NCBI GenBank assembly: GCA_016871315.1
Contig: VFZE01000031.1
Location: 1 to 64,000 of the forward strand
Source of the DNA: Acidimicrobiia bacterium
GTDB taxonomy: Bacteria > Acidobacteriota > Terriglobia > Bryobacterales > Bryobacteraceae
DNA length: 64,000 bases
Direction: 5' to 3'
Shown here: piece after piece, positions 36,956 through 45,487 of the stretch
How the letters are laid out: every line of letters starts with the position of its first letter
How positions within the stretch are numbered: position 1 is the stretch's first letter
Translations under genes and position numbers: made by a program
The notes under the pieces: generated by a model
Databases searched by the model: none
The model's input: the letters and a program-made list of their open reading frames with translations, nothing else
Told to the model about the DNA's origin: nothing

Positions 36956-37944
36956 ATGCCGCTGAAGGCGGGGGATCAACTGGGTAATTAATCGCGATCT
37001 CCAGCCGGAGAACATCATGATCGCCGGGGATGGCGTTCCAGGCACGCGCCTCTTTACATGAGTCCGGAACAGGCCTCCGGGCAGACGGTGGGTTATCGTT
37101 CCGATCAGTTCTCGCTGGGGCACATTCTGTACGAGATGGCCACCGGAAGACGGGCATTCGACCGGCCAACCTTGGCCGAAACGCTGGCCGCTGTCATCAA
37201 CGCCTCTCCGGAGCCGATTCCGTCCTCACATCCCTTGCCGGAGCAGGCCCGGTGGGCGATCGAGCGATGCCTTTCCAAGGAGCCGGAGGAGCGCTACGCC
37301 TCCACCGAGGACCTGTTTGGGGCCGTCAAACCCCTCGCTTCCAGCAGCAGTAGCGAGTCCCTGCCGGACTGGTCCCCGGATGGCGCTCAGCTCGCCTATG
37401 TGCTGGACCCTTCCGGCGATGGCGGACGGTCAACGGCTGGCGTGGTCTCCCGACGGCAACTGGGTGGCCTACCGCGCAAACGTCGGCCAGGTCCGCCAGA
37501 TCGAGAAAGCGCCCTCCGGCGGCGGCCCCCCCGGTTTTGGTGTGCCGGGGCGGGGCCGAAGCGATTGCCTGGGGCGGTGAATGGATTGCGTTCAGCAACC
37601 CGCAAGGCGTCCACGTTGTGCCCGCCGCGGGAGGGACGCCTCGCAGGCTCTCTTCTATGCGCACCAACTCCCTCGGTTTCTCCGCGAAAGCGGATGCTTT
37701 GCTCACCATCGCCATGCAGGACGCGCGCTGGGCTTTGTGGACCATCGATCTCCGGTCGGGTGCGGCGCGTATTCTGTTCCACCTTCCATTCCCCGCCTCC
37801 ACCAGTGTTGCGGGCTTCAGTTTTCTTCCCTCCAAGGGCAGGATGGCCACGGGAATCCTTACCGACCGCACCGATCTCTGGATCATGGAGAACTTCGCGC
37901 CGCCCTCTGTCGGTTCACGGCTCCGCGGCCTTCTGGGTTGGTAA
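36956..37944 (+). pseudogene. Ser/Thr protein kinase with PD40 beta-propeller, decayed
   Basis: Remnants lie in the right order but in all three frames. At 36956 an ATG gives MPLKAGDQLG, the usual opening of acidobacterial Pkn kinases. After a missing stretch, GTA at 36984 opens VINRDLQPENIMIAGDG, the catalytic loop (H of HRD replaced by N). Then the activation loop is missing and YMSPEQASGQTVGYRSDQFS resumes at 37055 with the C-lobe through RYASTEDLFGAVKPL. Propeller pieces follow: LPDWSPDGAQLAYVLD, then AWSPDGNWVAYRANV in another frame, then from about 37537 a third frame ending TDLWIMENF and a stop at 37944. At least two deletions and two frame changes make it non-functional. Confidence 0.85.
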
Positions 37945-37965
37945 CCACGGTGATAGGATAGCGAA

Positions 37966-38466
37966 GTGTTTGCCCGGGTTTTCCTGCTGGTGGCAACTGC
38001 GGTCATCGCCGCTCAGGTTCCGTCACCCAAGTACGTGCGTCCCGCCCCCGAACAGCCCCTGCCCTTCAGCCACAAAAAACACACCGGCGAGCTGAAACTT
38101 GCCTGCGCCGACTGCCACCCGATTCCCGGCAACGGCGACTTCGCCACACTGCCCGCCACCGCCCAGTGCATGAGCTGCCACACCACTATCAAGAAGGACA
38201 GCCCGCATGTCCAGAAGCTTGCCGCATGGCACGGCGAAGGCGTTAAGGTCCGATGGGCCCCCGTCTACCGCATTCCCGATTATGTCTTCTTCAACCACCG
38301 CATCCATGTGGCCGTCAACGGCGTGACGTGTGAAACCTGCCACGGCCCGGTTGCCGAACGCGAAGTGCTGCGGCGCGAGAAAGATATTTCCATGGCCGCC
38401 TGCATGGATTGTCACCGTGCCAAAGGGGCATCCAATGACTGCCTGCTGTGCCATGAACAGCGTTAA
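37966..38466 (+). CDS. exported pentaheme cytochrome c
   Basis: 166 aa with a GTG start; signal peptide ends near VIAAQ. Five CxxCH motifs: CADCH, CMSCH, CETCH, CMDCH and CLLCH, with extra His (FSHKKHTGELKL, FNHRIHVAV) placed as in cytochrome c7/c3-type proteins where they serve as axial ligands. Small soluble periplasmic electron carrier. It is followed after 14 bp by an exported FMN-dependent 2-hydroxyacid dehydrogenase, whose electrons it is well placed to accept. This coupling is inference from gene order. Confidence 0.9.
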   Translation: MFARVFLLVATAVIAAQVPSPKYVRPAPEQPLPFSHKKHTGELKLACADCHPIPGNGDFATLPATAQCMSCHTTIKKDSPHVQKLAAWHGEGVKVRWAPVYRIPDYVFFNHRIHVAVNGVTCETCHGPVAEREVLRREKDISMAACMDCHRAKGASNDCLLCHEQR

Positions 38467-38480
38467 GGAAAGGTGATGGA

Positions 38481-39668
38481 ATGAATCGAAGAAAAGCAGT
38501 GCAATGCCTGGCCGGCTTCTTCGCCGCTTCCCCGCTGGCCCGCGCCCAGCAGGATTTGCCTTACTCGGGCGAGCGCGTCCCCGCACTGGAGGATCTGGTC
38601 AACGTCTTTGAGTTCGAGCCCATCTGCAAAATGCGCATCCCGCGCCAGAACTACGACTTCATCGCCGGCGGCGTCGATCAGGAATGGTCCCTCCGCCACA
38701 ACCGCGAGGCATTCGACAAAATCAGCTTGCGCCCGCGCATGCTGGTGGACGCTTCCCACCTCGATCTCTCCCTCACCCTGTTCGGCGACAAGCTCAGCTG
38801 CCCCATTCTGGTCGCCCCCACCGCCGGCCACGCCCAGGCCAACCCGGAGGGCGAGTTCGCCACCGCACGCGCCGCCGCCGCCACCGAGACCATCCTCATC
38901 CTCAGCACCAACTCCAGCCATCCGCTGGAAAAGGTGGCGGAGGCATCCAACTTCCCCAAATGGTTCCAACTATACCCGGGTCCTGATCTGGAAGGTACCT
39001 GGGAGCGCATCCAGCGTGCCATGGATTCCGGCTACAAGACCATCGTGCTTACCGTCGACGCCGGCTACAATTCCCACCGCGAGCGGCTTCTCCGTAACCG
39101 TCTCCGTACGCAGACTCCTCCGGGCGTTCCTTCGCCGCAATCCCGCCGCGCGCGCGTTCGCGAGGAGGAGACTTCCACCCCTTCCCGTCCCGCCGTCTAC
39201 GGCCTCACCACCACGCTGATGCACAAACTGGACTGGCGCTTTTTCGATGAACTCAAAAAGCGCTCCCGCGTGCCCGTGCTGATCAAGGGAATCCTCGTCG
39301 CCGAAGATGCCGAACTGGCCGTCAAGCACGGCGCCGACGGGATCGTCGTCTCCAATCATGGCGCACGCTACCTGGATTACGCCCCTGCCACCATTGAAGT
39401 GCTTGCGGAAATCGTCGACGTGGTCAACAGGAAAATGCCCATTCTGGTGGACAGTGGTTTCCGCCGCGGTACCGACATCCTCAAGGCGCTGGCTATCGGC
39501 GCCACCGCCGTCTGCGTCGGCCGCCCGCCGCTGTGGGGCCTCGGCGCTTATGGCGAGCCTGGCGTCAGGCGTGTCCTGGAACTTTTGCGGACGGAATTGG
39601 CCTTGGCGATGGGCCTCTGTGGGAAGGCCAACCTCTCTCAGATCGACCGCAAGCTCGTCCGCATGTAG
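38481..39668 (+). CDS. exported FMN-dependent alpha-hydroxyacid dehydrogenase
   Basis: 395 aa. N-terminus MNRRKAVQCLAGFFAASPLA followed by RAQ is a signal with an arginine pair, unusual for this normally cytosolic or membrane-facing family. FMN/active-site blocks: YDFIAGGVDQEWSLRHNREA, APTAGHAQANPEGEFATARA, WFQLYPGPDLEGTWERIQRA, then VVSNHGARYLDYAPA with the catalytic His, and VDSGFRRGTDILKAL with the phosphate-binding Arg/Gly, then CVGRPPLWGLGAYG. Oxidises an L-2-hydroxyacid such as lactate or glycolate to the 2-oxoacid. If exported, O2 or a cytochrome takes the electrons; the adjacent pentaheme protein fits that role. Confidence 0.88.
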   Translation: MNRRKAVQCLAGFFAASPLARAQQDLPYSGERVPALEDLVNVFEFEPICKMRIPRQNYDFIAGGVDQEWSLRHNREAFDKISLRPRMLVDASHLDLSLTLFGDKLSCPILVAPTAGHAQANPEGEFATARAAAATETILILSTNSSHPLEKVAEASNFPKWFQLYPGPDLEGTWERIQRAMDSGYKTIVLTVDAGYNSHRERLLRNRLRTQTPPGVPSPQSRRARVREEETSTPSRPAVYGLTTTLMHKLDWRFFDELKKRSRVPVLIKGILVAEDAELAVKHGADGIVVSNHGARYLDYAPATIEVLAEIVDVVNRKMPILVDSGFRRGTDILKALAIGATAVCVGRPPLWGLGAYGEPGVRRVLELLRTELALAMGLCGKANLSQIDRKLVRM

Positions 39669-42181: not shown

Positions 42182-43633
42182 TTACCGGAACCGGTACATC
42201 AGCTCCATGTAGCCGAACGATCCGTCTTTGTCCCGCGGATAGATGGCCGCTGTGACCGATTTGCCGATCGCGTAGCCGAAATAGCCGCTCAGGGTGACCT
42301 GAGGAGTTACGCGCAGGTCGACCCCTGTGTCGAACAGGTTCGCCAGCGACCGCGCGCCATTGCTCGGCCGCCCGATATAACCGAAACTCCACGGCTGGAA
42401 TGCACCGCCACCCAGGTACCAGAGGTCATTCCTGTTGGCCAGCCGCAGCGCGTGCGCCTCGGCGTTAAAGGTCACTTTCGCGTGCGGCCGCAGCATCAGC
42501 ATCGTGCCGAAATCCTCGTTGTTCATCATGTTGAAGAACGGGAAACGTGCATAGGGACGGGGCGTCGGCAGCATCTGGAAAAACGTGGTGTGCTTGTTGT
42601 CGTTGGGATCGTTGTCTCCCGTGCCGTGTGAGTAGGCGGCGCGCAGCCAAGGCTTCAGCTTCGGCAGCCCGTCCGGCTGCCAGCCCAACTCCGCCGCGAT
42701 GACTCCGCCGGAATGATCCAGCCTTCCCCATCGCCCGGTCTGCCCGACACCCCACAGCATGATGTCGAACGGTCCAGCGCCGCTTTGCACCTTTTGCAGG
42801 TAGTGGCCGCCGAAGCTGCCAATGCGTACATTGCCGATGTTGGCGCGCCGGGCGGCCGGCGGCAGGTTGTCGGTCATCAGGACATTGCGCCAGTCATGGT
42901 AGTAGATGCCCATGAGGCGCCACTCGCCGTTATTCTCTTTGGCGTGCACCTGCCCGGTGGCCGCCGCGTAGAGGAAGCCAGTGTGCAGATTGCCCCAGCC
43001 GTCCACCTGAAATACGCCCCGCGTCGGCATCGCGCCAACGAGGGTGAAGTTGAACTTCGGCTTGTTGTAGACGTAGTGGAAGCCGTCGAAACTGCGCATC
43101 ACGTGTGTGAATCCAAAGGTGCCGATCAGCCTCACCACGATCCGCTCGCGCTTCAGCGCCGCCAGAACCGGATCCTTCGGCATCACCTCCGTGCCGTCGT
43201 TGAATTCAAACCGCCCCAGCCGTACGCTGTGTGTGGCTTCGTCAAATTTCCAGCGCAGAAACCCTTCCTTGAGGAACACCATCCCGGCGTTGCTCCGGCG
43301 CTTGTTTGCCGCAAAGTAGTTTCCGCCGAGGCCAAGCTGCAACTGCGGCGCCGGAGCAATCGCGTCATCGGGCAGCCCGAGGAAAAACGGCGCGGCGAAA
43401 TCCAGTTTCCAATCAAAGGCACCCCGCTGCTGGCTGATACCCAGCCTCAGGTGATTCCCGGAAAAGGCATAATTGCTGTTTTGCGTGCCGCCGAACCAGT
43501 TCCAGCCCTCCACGCGGCTGCGCAAAAACCCGTTGCATTGCACCTTCCCGGCGGCGGCAGGCGCTGGTTGGCCCATCGCGGCAACGGCCGCCATCGCGGA
43601 AACGGCCGCGATCCGTACAAGATGACTGATCAT
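42182..43633 (-). CDS. outer-membrane porin-like beta-barrel (alginate-export type)
   Basis: 483 aa from the ATG at 43633, which overlaps the nrfA stop as ATGA; a longer reading into nrfA is an artefact. Signal peptide through AVAAMGQPAPAAAG. Then alternating aromatic/polar strands: GFLRSRVEGWNWFGG, LRLGISQQRGAFDWKLDFAA, FEFNDGTEVMPKDPVLAALK, ending MELMYRFR. The pattern fits long porin/alginate-export-like barrels with short N-terminal strand. Coupled translation with nrfA suggests it passes nitrite, nitrate or another substrate needed with the nitrite reductase; that link is inference. Confidence 0.75.
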   Translation of the reverse strand: MISHLVRIAAVSAMAAVAAMGQPAPAAAGKVQCNGFLRSRVEGWNWFGGTQNSNYAFSGNHLRLGISQQRGAFDWKLDFAAPFFLGLPDDAIAPAPQLQLGLGGNYFAANKRRSNAGMVFLKEGFLRWKFDEATHSVRLGRFEFNDGTEVMPKDPVLAALKRERIVVRLIGTFGFTHVMRSFDGFHYVYNKPKFNFTLVGAMPTRGVFQVDGWGNLHTGFLYAAATGQVHAKENNGEWRLMGIYYHDWRNVLMTDNLPPAARRANIGNVRIGSFGGHYLQKVQSGAGPFDIMLWGVGQTGRWGRLDHSGGVIAAELGWQPDGLPKLKPWLRAAYSHGTGDNDPNDNKHTTFFQMLPTPRPYARFPFFNMMNNEDFGTMLMLRPHAKVTFNAEAHALRLANRNDLWYLGGGAFQPWSFGYIGRPSNGARSLANLFDTGVDLRVTPQVTLSGYFGYAIGKSVTAAIYPRDKDGSFGYMELMYRFR

Positions 43634-44964
43634 TTCTTCGAGTTCCTCGCCGCAAGCCGCGCCGCCGCCAGCTGGCCCTGCCGCGCGTAATCGATCGCCT
43701 CGCCCAGAATGCGCGCCGCCTCTTGAGGCGCATGAAAGCCCGTGGAGTTTTCCGCATTCACAAAGTCCACCCGGAACTGCGCCTTGCGTTGCAGCTTCCG
43801 GGCCGAATCGAGGGGCCCATCCGCCACCCCGGCCGACTGCGCCGCCTTCACTTCGTCGTACAGCGCCAGCAGCGCATCTTCGGCCTGTATCAACAGCCGC
43901 GCGTTGCGCTGTTGAATGATCTCCACCCGCGTCTTCATCTCCTCGGCCGAAAACGGGTGGCAAACCAGGCACGCCCGCTCGACGTTCAGCATCGGGCTGC
44001 GCACATGATGATCGCTGACCTTCATCGCCCCCTCGCGCTTGTAGGGCATGTGACAGTCCGCGCAGGCGACGCCCGAGCGCGCATGGATGCCCTGACTCCA
44101 CAATTCAAACTCCGGGTGCTGCGCCTTCAGCACTCCGGCGCCGGTTTCGGCATGCTTCCAGTCACTGAAACCCACCTCGTCGTAGTAGGCTTCGATCTCC
44201 TCCACCTTCAGCCCCTTTGACCACGGGTAGGTGACCAGCTTCTTCTCGCCGGCGAAATAGTACTCCACGTGGCACTGGCCGCAGACGTAGCTGCGCATCT
44301 CCTGTCGCGTCGCCATCGTGTTGGGATCGTAGTTGCCGATTCCCTGGGACTTCTTGAACGCCTTGATGCCGTTGATAAAACCCGGCCGATTCACTTCCAG
44401 CGCCATCGTCTTCGGGTTATGGCAGTCCAGGCAGACCACCGGGTGGGTCACCAACTTGCGCGCCTCGGAAAACGGCTTCTGGCAGATCTCCTCGAAGCCC
44501 TTCATGATGTCGCCGCCGCCGGCCTTGCGGTAGGCGGGAATCACCGACGCGTGGCAATGCAGGCAGGAGCCCGGCTGGTTCCGCTTTTTCGTCCTCTCCG
44601 TTTCGTCCTGGTCTTTCAGGGAATAGTAGTGTCCCCGGTCCTCGCGGAAGTCCAGCGCAAAGGCGTAGCCGGCGAAGATGCGGCGGAGCCGGGGGTCTTC
44701 GTCCAGCCGCTGAAACGCCTCGCTGCCGCCGAACTTGGTGCGCTGCGTGTCGACAGTGCGCATGTAGCCGTCGTATTGGCGCGGGAAGTTCTTACCCCAC
44801 TCCGCCGGGTCCACCGTGTCTTCATGGATGTGCGCCAGTGGCAGGTAGGTCTGCTGGGCCTCCTGCTTGCGCTCGGTGATGTTCATGAGCAGTCCGGTGA
44901 CGATGAATGTCGCCACCGCCACTCCGGCAATCAGCGTGATGTACAGAATCCGCGAGTTCTTCAT
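43630..44964 (-). CDS. nrfA: ammonia-forming cytochrome c nitrite reductase, CxxCH variant at heme 1
   Basis: 444 aa from the ATG at 44964 (AAAGGA upstream); an upstream in-frame start at 45069 runs into nrfH. One N-terminal membrane anchor or uncleaved signal (YITLIAGVAVATFIVTGLLM). Five heme motifs: CLHCH 134-138, CLDCH 178-182, CGQCH 228-232, CADCH 301-305, CLVCH 332-336. Spacing matches NrfA exactly in order, but heme 1, the active-site heme with Lys ligand (CxxCK) in canonical enzymes, is CxxCH here. VEYYF and the QGIHARSG His keep the catalytic Tyr and His. Reduces nitrite to ammonium with six electrons, supplied by NrfH encoded 19 bp upstream. Confidence 0.92.
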   Translation of the reverse strand: MKNSRILYITLIAGVAVATFIVTGLLMNITERKQEAQQTYLPLAHIHEDTVDPAEWGKNFPRQYDGYMRTVDTQRTKFGGSEAFQRLDEDPRLRRIFAGYAFALDFREDRGHYYSLKDQDETERTKKRNQPGSCLHCHASVIPAYRKAGGGDIMKGFEEICQKPFSEARKLVTHPVVCLDCHNPKTMALEVNRPGFINGIKAFKKSQGIGNYDPNTMATRQEMRSYVCGQCHVEYYFAGEKKLVTYPWSKGLKVEEIEAYYDEVGFSDWKHAETGAGVLKAQHPEFELWSQGIHARSGVACADCHMPYKREGAMKVSDHHVRSPMLNVERACLVCHPFSAEEMKTRVEIIQQRNARLLIQAEDALLALYDEVKAAQSAGVADGPLDSARKLQRKAQFRVDFVNAENSTGFHAPQEAARILGEAIDYARQGQLAAARLAARNSKK

Positions 44965-44983
44965 GATTCCTTTCTCCCGCGCC

Positions 44984-45487
44984 TCAGCGCCGGGGACCGT
45001 GGCCGACGCCCGAGTGGCACTTGGTGCATCGCGTCTCCTGCCTGGCGCCGAGACTGGCTCGCAGCTCATGCGTCAGATCCAGATGGCACCGCACGCAGTT
45101 GGCCTCCACGACCTCAAAATTGATCTGGCGTATCCGGATCGGCTCGGCGAAGTTCTGCAACGTGAACTTTAGTGAATGGTTCCAGCCGTTGTCGGCCTTG
45201 TTGATGAGCTTGGGCAGCGCCGCCGCCGGTGCGTGGCAGTCATTGCACGTGGCCTCGCCGTGGTGGCTGGACTTCTGCCACGAGGCCAGGTGGTCGTTCA
45301 TGATGTGGCAGTTGGCGCACGCCGCCGGATCATTGCTGAAGTAGGCCAGCCCCTTGGCAAATTGGAAAGTATAGGTTCCCAGGCCCAGTAGAAGGCCGAT
45401 GGCCAAGGTCAAGATCAAGGGCAATCCGGAGTGGCCAATCAAGGCGTTCCGCCGGCCGCCTCTGATTTCAGATAAGCAGCACCGCAA
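44984..45487 (-). CDS. nrfH: tetraheme quinol dehydrogenase NrfH
   Basis: Up to 167 aa; the TTG at 45487 is uncertain and a TTG at 45442 is equally possible. One TM helix (LPLILTLAIGLLLGLGTYTF) anchors a NapC/NirT-type domain with four hemes: CANCH, CNDCH, CVRCH and CTKCH. The first has the CxxCHxM pattern (CANCHIM) typical of NrfH, where the Met is a heme ligand. It passes electrons from menaquinol to NrfA. It begins 8 bp after metW and ends 19 bp before nrfA, so all appear co-transcribed. Confidence 0.93.
   Translation of the reverse strand: MRCCLSEIRGGRRNALIGHSGLPLILTLAIGLLLGLGTYTFQFAKGLAYFSNDPAACANCHIMNDHLASWQKSSHHGEATCNDCHAPAAALPKLINKADNGWNHSLKFTLQNFAEPIRIRQINFEVVEANCVRCHLDLTHELRASLGARQETRCTKCHSGVGHGPRR

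Follow-up and report, generated by a model that had tools for sequence, protein, structure and literature searches.

Within a 64,000-nucleotide (nt) stretch of the draft genome (6.25 Mb, 166 contigs) of a Bryobacterales bacterium of the Acidobacteriota, hereafter the window, a gene for a pentaheme c-type cytochrome is followed on the same strand by a gene for a flavin mononucleotide (FMN)-dependent 2-hydroxyacid dehydrogenase of the FMN_dh family (Table 1). The two products probably constitute a periplasmic 2-hydroxyacid:cytochrome c oxidoreductase, with FMN as the donor of electrons to a dedicated pentaheme acceptor. An FMN enzyme encoded 14 bp behind a five-heme gene had been the starting point of the original prediction for this locus, and the coordinates, the five CXXCH motifs and the Pfam families all check out.

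The pairing of the two genes recurs in related genomes. Orthologues of the window FMN_dh with 64-81% identity were found in four other genomes of the 61 searched, and the five-heme gene lies directly upstream in all five genomes, host included. In a tree of 73 FMN_dh proteins, these five enzymes group together as a clade with full support. Seven loci, the five of this clade and two others (G044 and G053), were compared over 7.7-18 kb each. The FMN enzyme and the cytochrome were the only coding-strand families common to all seven; a further hit common to the seven overlies the FMN_dh gene on the other strand, and no third conserved gene of the module was found in these loci. Thus, the pair is kept and the remaining surroundings differ, which is the outcome of the search for the pair and its neighbours proposed with the original prediction.

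Further sampling covered 200 genomes of the order, where 26 FMN_dh matches at E<=1e-120 occur in 21 genomes. The cytochrome gene stands directly 5' on the same strand in 13 of these 26, at 2-38 nt from match to match, and 12 of the 15 matches with the best scores have the pair (the exceptions being G175, G077 and G142). G053 is a fourteenth genome with the pair, in the order PQQ (pyrroloquinoline quinone) dehydrogenase, cytochrome, FMN_dh, FMN_dh. A random FMN_dh gene would be expected within 40 nt of such a cytochrome about once in 25,000 cases (for a 6-Mb genome with three cytochromes); since half of the best matches are paired, the arrangement is not due to chance.

Similarly, a scan of GTDB release 220 with two peptide patterns found 21 loci, 19 of them close relatives at 57-80% identity, and 14 of these 19 have the upstream five-heme gene with 4-31 nt between the cytochrome stop and the FMN_dh match; these loci overlap with the 200-genome set, so that the two counts are not independent. 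The closest locus (L097) belongs to a Terriglobia metagenome-assembled genome (MAG) with 80% identity in the best segment, and further close matches carry the labels Acidobacteria, Bryobacterales, Bryobacteraceae or Candidatus Sulfopaludibacter. The two remaining loci, from Desulfobacterota (L115) and Acidimicrobiia (L116), share only 42-43% identity and have neither signal nor cytochrome. Conservation of the pair beyond the host genome, the point on which the original prediction had been staked beforehand, is therefore seen in both sets. An across-phylum search of 396 genomes gave matches better than 1e-120 only in the host genome, in two of its three rows. The window FMN_dh clade thus looks confined to this order, with few members of the order among the matches listed.

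The N-terminus of the FMN enzyme is suggestive of export. Its catalytic domain begins at about residue 38 and is preceded by the extension MNRRKAVQCLAGFFAASPLARAQ, of the form MxRR-x-hydrophobic...AQ over 23 residues. The arginine pair (RR) at residues 3-4 is invariant among five aligned orthologues and occurs at each of the 19 close loci from GTDB, and the extension is absent from domain-only relatives; in L115 and L116, the distant enzymes of that scan, nothing aligns with the window signal. A rule asking for RR followed by 12 residues with a mean hydropathy above 0.9, a cut-off chosen by ourselves, is satisfied by 83 of 94 FMN_dh sequences, one of which (L116) apparently passes by chance inside the start of the domain. 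Among the 11 failures, an N-terminal RR is missing from five (L072, L073, L076, L092 and L115) and replaced by RK in L060; in four others (L089, L107, L111 and L112) the RR is there but the stretch behind it is slightly too weak, and the start of L051_44 was badly chosen. An RR signal is therefore the rule and not the exception among the sequences examined, contrary to the premise of the original prediction that FMN hydroxyacid dehydrogenases are normally cytosolic or membrane-facing. The host genome also encodes TatC, and export of the enzyme by the twin-arginine translocation (Tat) system is likely.

The enzyme belongs to the FMN_dh family, with a PF01070 match of 393.3 bits (cut-off 24.9; E 1.2e-117) that spans profile positions 2-349 of 350. 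Plant glycolate oxidases are its best single-domain solved relatives (spinach enzyme, PDB 1gox, E 3.3e-86), and the fold is also matched by flavocytochrome b2 structures (PDB 1fcb and relatives). An AlphaFold model with a mean predicted local distance difference test score (pLDDT) of 78.6 and a predicted template modelling score of 0.77 is usable save for residues 195-248, and a Foldseek search with it returned 5zbm_B at rank 1 and 1gox at rank 2. Five residues, Tyr165, Asp193, Lys269, His293 and Arg296, are invariant among 16 aligned FMN_dh sequences. They align with the catalytic Tyr129, Asp157, Lys230, His254 and Arg257 of glycolate oxidase. Because these catalytic residues are kept, the window enzyme should oxidise some 2-hydroxyacid.

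More specific identities for the enzyme were considered and set aside on score: LldD (NF033901; 201.8 bits against a cut-off of 550), L-lactate oxidase (TIGR02708; 244 against 645.5) and the pre-mycofactocin synthase MftD (TIGR03966; 226.6 against 470.85). No cytochrome b5 domain was found in the protein by a Pfam search at E<=0.01.

The cytochrome matches PF14522 with 45.1 bits (cut-off 24.8), and Pfam also assigns it to Cytochrom_CIII. Its most hydrophobic 19-residue segment begins at residue 1 (mean hydropathy 1.85), and the best value after residue 20 is 0.55; as no comparably hydrophobic stretch follows the N-terminus, the mature protein looks soluble. Solved relatives include subunit A of alternative complex III (6btm) as well as 6f0k, 6lod and 8k9e, which are of the same subunit type. 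The best NCBIfam model is QrcA. Neither relative provides an identity: the QrcA score (NF041781; 91.6 bits) is below the cut-off of 180, and an ActA assignment was rejected because the neighbours in the window are a broken kinase gene and FMN_dh, with no iron-sulfur (ActB) or NrfD-type (ActC) genes directly beside. The AlphaFold model of the cytochrome is of low confidence (mean pLDDT 60), and for this reason no docking argument can be made for the pair.

An acceptor role for the cytochrome is strengthened by the company that its paralogues keep, which adjoin PQQ and GMC dehydrogenases. Both dehydrogenase classes are known to hand electrons to c-type cytochromes. A profile (A2) built from seven partner cytochromes matched 197 of the 200 order genomes at E<=1e-20, with one to seven copies per genome. 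The host has five copies at this threshold and seven matches at E<=1e-5, two of which are pieces of one gene; a search of the host with a short piece of a PQQ-type cytochrome returned the known copies and two weak matches only. One host copy (contig C50) has a PQQ-type dehydrogenase directly upstream, and another (C69) is accompanied by a GMC oxidoreductase and a Gluconate_2-dh3 gene. A third (C48; L156) is followed by genes for a 4Fe-4S protein of 996 residues, which shows a sub-threshold match to a molybdopterin domain, and for NrfD, and this locus is read as alternative complex III-like.

Across the order, at least 61 of the 150 cytochromes among the matches listed have a GMC gene upstream (at 15-84 nt, in one case 213), at least 31 a PQQ gene upstream (2-144 nt) and at least 13 an FMN_dh gene downstream; one is divergent from a PQQ gene (G033). 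At most 44 have none of the three enzyme types beside them, an upper bound, as one genome counted there (G007, locus L138) does have a GMC neighbour. The partner counts are lower bounds, as they join the 150 cytochromes with the 26 FMN_dh matches, G053 and a by-eye selection of PQQ and GMC matches, and the Pfam names of the partners were checked on one GMC and two PQQ examples. The GMC-pentaheme pair occurs in at least 58 of the 200 genomes. Locus L155 (5757-8366) combines a GMC oxidoreductase, Gluconate_2-dh3 and a pentaheme cytochrome. Orphan pentaheme genes of family f3 lie between formylglycine-enzyme-like and dxr-like genes, named by eye, at L143, L145 and L147.

The cytochromes also group by partner. 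A tree was made of 56 members out of 114 profile hits, after removal of duplicates and of sequences without exactly five CXXCH motifs; it is unrooted, several of its deep forks are weak, and the long branches (the alternative complex III-like sequence and L151) are badly placed. For cytochromes with only FMN, PQQ or GMC partners, the tree needs two partner changes, which is the minimum that three labels permit. The number rises to 11 when all six labels are used, unpaired included, with a shuffled mean of 31.7 for comparison, and taken singly the GMC, PQQ and FMN labels change one, three and six times, respectively. Five unpaired cytochromes fall within the main FMN-type group; four of the five genomes with an unlinked cytochrome of this type (G100, G175, G049 and G054) hold an FMN_dh gene at E<=1e-120 elsewhere, and G033 does not. 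On balance, it seems plausible that an ActA-homologous pentaheme family serves in Bryobacterales as a co-encoded plug-in acceptor for exported FMN, FAD (flavin adenine dinucleotide)-containing GMC and PQQ dehydrogenases, with a subfamily matched to each, and that the exported FMN hydroxyacid dehydrogenases make up a large part of this periplasmic oxidation system that has yet to be described.

Multiheme partners are also found in other parts of the FMN_dh tree. A second clade of the order has a gene for a 4-heme protein downstream in 9 of 17 cases, and a third has one for a 6-heme protein in 8 of 9. Both carry RR signals (RK in one sequence). The equivalent of Tyr129 is missing in both, judged from one aligned representative of each, and their substrates may for this reason differ from that of the window enzyme.

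Some loci of these groups have features of their own. In a genome of the same genus, a clade B locus (L061:4882-7357) encodes an RR-signal FMN_dh, an RR-signal protein with a weak match to Vgb_lyase (a beta-propeller) and a third product with four CXXCH motifs behind an N-terminal region without Pfam match. In clade C, a six-heme cytochrome gene adjoins FMN_dh downstream at L057:6411-8065, with a 4-nt overlap, and at seven similar loci, three of them with a uroporphyrinogen-synthase-like gene (named by eye) upstream. Three clade A enzymes without a cytochrome (L108, L109 and L117) are encoded between RR-signal aldo/keto-reductase-like and short-chain-dehydrogenase-like genes, again named by eye. 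In a genome from another class of the phylum, a tandem pair of FMN_dh genes converges on a five-heme gene that resembles, by eye, the family of the window cytochrome (L225:979-3755).

A working scheme for the pair can be proposed. The FMN enzyme would fold with its cofactor in the cytoplasm and then, as the RR signal suggests, be exported by the Tat system. It would take a hydride from an L-2-hydroxyacid (lactate, glycolate or a related compound) by the standard His/Asp/Tyr/Arg chemistry, and the reduced FMN would deliver single electrons in turn to the soluble five-heme protein of the pair, a step suggested by the linkage and by the partners of the paralogues. From there, electrons would pass to a periplasmic cytochrome pool and on to a terminal reductase or oxidase. 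The module would then be a split bacterial counterpart of flavocytochrome b2, and the relatives of its cytochrome appear to serve PQQ and GMC dehydrogenases likewise. In the original prediction, 2-hydroxyacid oxidation outside the inner membrane was thought to feed a cytochrome chain; the acceptor part of that proposal has gained from the PQQ- and GMC-linked paralogues, whereas its substrate and electron flow are matters that we infer.

Several observations weigh against a periplasmic oxidoreductase with a dedicated acceptor. The Tat-signal model TIGR01409 (NCBIfam) matches none of seven FMN_dh N-termini at E<=10, and the hydrophobic stretch is short, with a hydropathy of 1.51 over 15 residues against an inner best of 1.34 over 19 at residue 333. 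Two active-site positions depart from glycolate oxidase: in place of Tyr24 the window enzyme has Phe60 and its relatives have Phe, Tyr or Asn, and Asn144 stands where the plant enzyme has Trp108. As a result, the substrate cannot be read from the active site, and an assignment from these residues was dropped. In addition, five of the 19 close relatives (L108, L109, L110, L113 and L117) have no adjacent cytochrome, and neither does a paralogue in the host genome (contig C32). Among the 73 FMN_dh proteins of the tree, 49 are without a multiheme gene within a distance rule set by ourselves, including a whole clade of RR-signal enzymes (L058, L070, L079 and others). FMN_dh enzymes can therefore occur with no acceptor encoded beside them; linkage to a cytochrome recurs in three clades and with three cytochrome types, yet it is not general.

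Such unlinked enzymes are also what would be expected if the exported FMN enzyme were an oxidase that makes hydrogen peroxide from oxygen, the cytochrome being a general carrier that shares the operon. The closest solved structures, lactate oxidase constructs and glycolate oxidases, are oxidases as well. However, flavocytochrome b2 matches the same fold, so that the fold does not decide between oxidase and dehydrogenase, and the fact that a cytochrome subfamily is linked to this clade of enzymes, together with the pairing of two other clades with 4-heme and 6-heme cytochromes, makes an oxidase unlikely. The missing TIGR01409 match and the short hydrophobic region would suit a different enzyme, LldD-like, cytosolic or membrane-associated and quinone-using, in which the RR stretch is no working signal, or a membrane tether, and to which the cytochrome is functionally unrelated; in bacteria, LldD and mandelate dehydrogenase are associated with the cytosolic face of the membrane. 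This is quite improbable in view of the retention of the extension at every close GTDB locus and its frequency under the RR rule, set against its absence from domain-only relatives. Further, the partner is a c-type cytochrome, and such proteins work outside the cytoplasm. The single PQQ-type partner of a paralogous cytochrome that was examined comes near the TIGR01409 threshold, with 15.2 bits against 16.7. The export signal claimed by the original prediction thus stands as a conserved extension of Tat-like form in a genome with TatC, and fails to be recognised by the Tat model.

Reversed electron flow, with the cytochrome as donor and the pair reducing a 2-oxoacid in the periplasm, is conceivable in that low-potential multiheme cytochromes can donate and the ActA and QrcA relatives exchange electrons with quinone modules. 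It is nevertheless very unlikely, as the characterised members of the FMN_dh family are oxidases or dehydrogenases and the paralogues of the cytochrome are encoded beside PQQ and GMC dehydrogenases, classes in which the known enzymes are oxidative. Accidental neighbourhood, that is, hitch-hiking of the two genes with no functional coupling, might be suspected from the flanks, which vary among genomes, and from the broken kinase gene in the adjoining segment of the window. The persistence of the pair across several genera while its surroundings change makes this scarcely credible. A periplasmic 2-hydroxyacid dehydrogenase with its own pentaheme acceptor remains the explanation that we favour.

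Features of the pair are listed in Table 1. An in-frame stop lies 12 nt ahead of the GTG start of the cytochrome gene, and AGGAAAGG in the gap between the genes is likely a ribosome binding site.

Table 1. Positions of the cytochrome-FMN_dh pair and its parts in the window.
Feature	Position	Strand	Details or basis
Pentaheme c-type cytochrome gene, ActA/QrcA-like, Cytochrome_C7/Cytochrom_CIII	37966..38466	+	166 aa; GTG start 37966; TAA 38464-38466
Putative signal peptide of cytochrome, about residues 1-17	37966..38016	+	Hydrophobic N-terminus
Heme motif 1, CADCH, cytochrome residue 47	38104..38118	+	Sequence motif
Heme motif 2, CMSCH, cytochrome residue 68	38167..38181	+	Sequence motif
Heme motif 3, CETCH, cytochrome residue 122	38329..38343	+	Sequence motif
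Heme motif 4, CMDCH, cytochrome residue 146	38401..38415	+	Sequence motif
Heme motif 5, CLLCH, cytochrome residue 159	38440..38454	+	Sequence motif
Intergenic gap, 14 nt, with AGGAAAGG	38467..38480	+	Sequence
FMN-dependent 2-hydroxyacid dehydrogenase gene (predicted)	38481..39668	+	395 aa; ATG 38481; TAG 39666-39668; PF01070
Twin-arginine-like N-terminal signal of FMN_dh, residues 1-23, MNRRKAVQCLAGFFAASPLARAQ	38481..38549	+	Conserved RR form; no TIGR01409 match
Tyr165, equivalent of glycolate oxidase Tyr129	38973..38975	+	Alignment to 1gox
Asp193, equivalent of glycolate oxidase Asp157	39057..39059	+	Alignment to 1gox
Lys269, equivalent of glycolate oxidase Lys230	39285..39287	+	Alignment to 1gox
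His293, equivalent of catalytic base His254	39357..39359	+	Alignment to 1gox
Arg296, equivalent of glycolate oxidase Arg257	39366..39368	+	Alignment to 1gox

Just 5' of the cytochrome gene (37058-37961), the window holds a serine/threonine kinase remnant with a sub-threshold Pkinase match, followed by a PD40-like stretch, and frame changes break it. Further along, on the minus strand (42182-45487), genes for an NrfH-like four-heme protein, an NrfA-like cytochrome c552 and an Alginate_exp-type porin stand in a row.

A search of a PubMed Central subset, with subscription literature outside its scope, found neither an exported FMN hydroxyacid dehydrogenase described together with a multiheme cytochrome partner nor an account of a cytochrome partner shared by FMN, GMC and PQQ enzymes. 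One study mentions pentaheme cytochromes solely as parts of alternative complex III (PMC6344600). In a second, the terms FMN, pentaheme and PQQ do not occur, and most multiheme cytochromes encoded by its MAGs are stated to have unknown substrates (PMC8100337). Membrane-bound multiheme cytochromes are described in Paludibaculum fermentans, a member of the Bryobacterales, in a report in which the term dehydrogenase does not occur (PMC8407742). The parts of the module are of known kinds, and their combination is new to us.

If the proposed function is correct, a widespread and little-cultured order of Acidobacteriota would oxidise hydroxyacids, and likewise sugars and alcohols, in the periplasm, with the electrons gathered by one five-heme family. 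Such a system would parallel, in bacteria, what flavocytochrome b2 does, and would resemble the incomplete oxidation carried out by acetic acid bacteria. Testable functions would become available for cytochrome c3-family, FMN_dh, GMC and PQQ genes that are annotated but unassigned, and a type of respiratory-complex subunit and the partners of stand-alone dehydrogenases would turn out to be versions of one another. The matched subfamilies of cytochromes and enzymes would also offer a natural set for the study of partner specificity.

The pair can be compared with several known systems. LldD and (S)-mandelate dehydrogenase are respiratory dehydrogenases of the FMN_dh family that act on the cytosolic side with a quinone as acceptor; the LldD of Escherichia coli has no RR extension in the alignment, and the window protein is far below the LldD cut-off. 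Plant and human glycolate oxidases (hydroxyacid oxidase 1) provide the closest single-domain structures by sequence and fold and have the same catalytic residues. However, they are peroxisomal, without export signal or cytochrome, and differ from the window enzyme at the Tyr24 and Trp108 positions. On the side of the cytochrome, ActA of alternative complex III and QrcA of the Qrc complex are homologous multiheme proteins, whereas the window cytochrome is below the QrcA cut-off and has no genes of the iron-sulfur or NrfD type directly beside it. Dehydrogenases of the gluconate 2-dehydrogenase type, made up of a GMC flavoprotein, subunit 3 and a cytochrome, and PQQ alcohol or glucose dehydrogenases resemble the pair in that a cytochrome gene adjoins the dehydrogenase gene, and in Bryobacterales the cytochrome concerned is paralogous to that of the window; the enzymes themselves differ from FMN_dh in fold and cofactor. 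The cytochrome of classical gluconate dehydrogenase is a triheme protein of another family.

The nearest parallel is yeast flavocytochrome b2, the L-lactate:cytochrome c oxidoreductase of the mitochondrial intermembrane space. The original prediction knew of no described system of this layout; the search of the PubMed Central subset agrees, and this yeast enzyme qualifies the claim as a precedent for reduction of cytochrome c by an FMN lactate dehydrogenase beyond the inner membrane. It shares with the window enzyme the FMN_dh fold and, on the proposed reading, a place outside the energy-conserving membrane and a heme acceptor. It differs in that its heme domain is of the b5 type and fused to the flavin domain, whereas the window enzyme has no b5 match and is paired with a separate five-heme protein of the c type.

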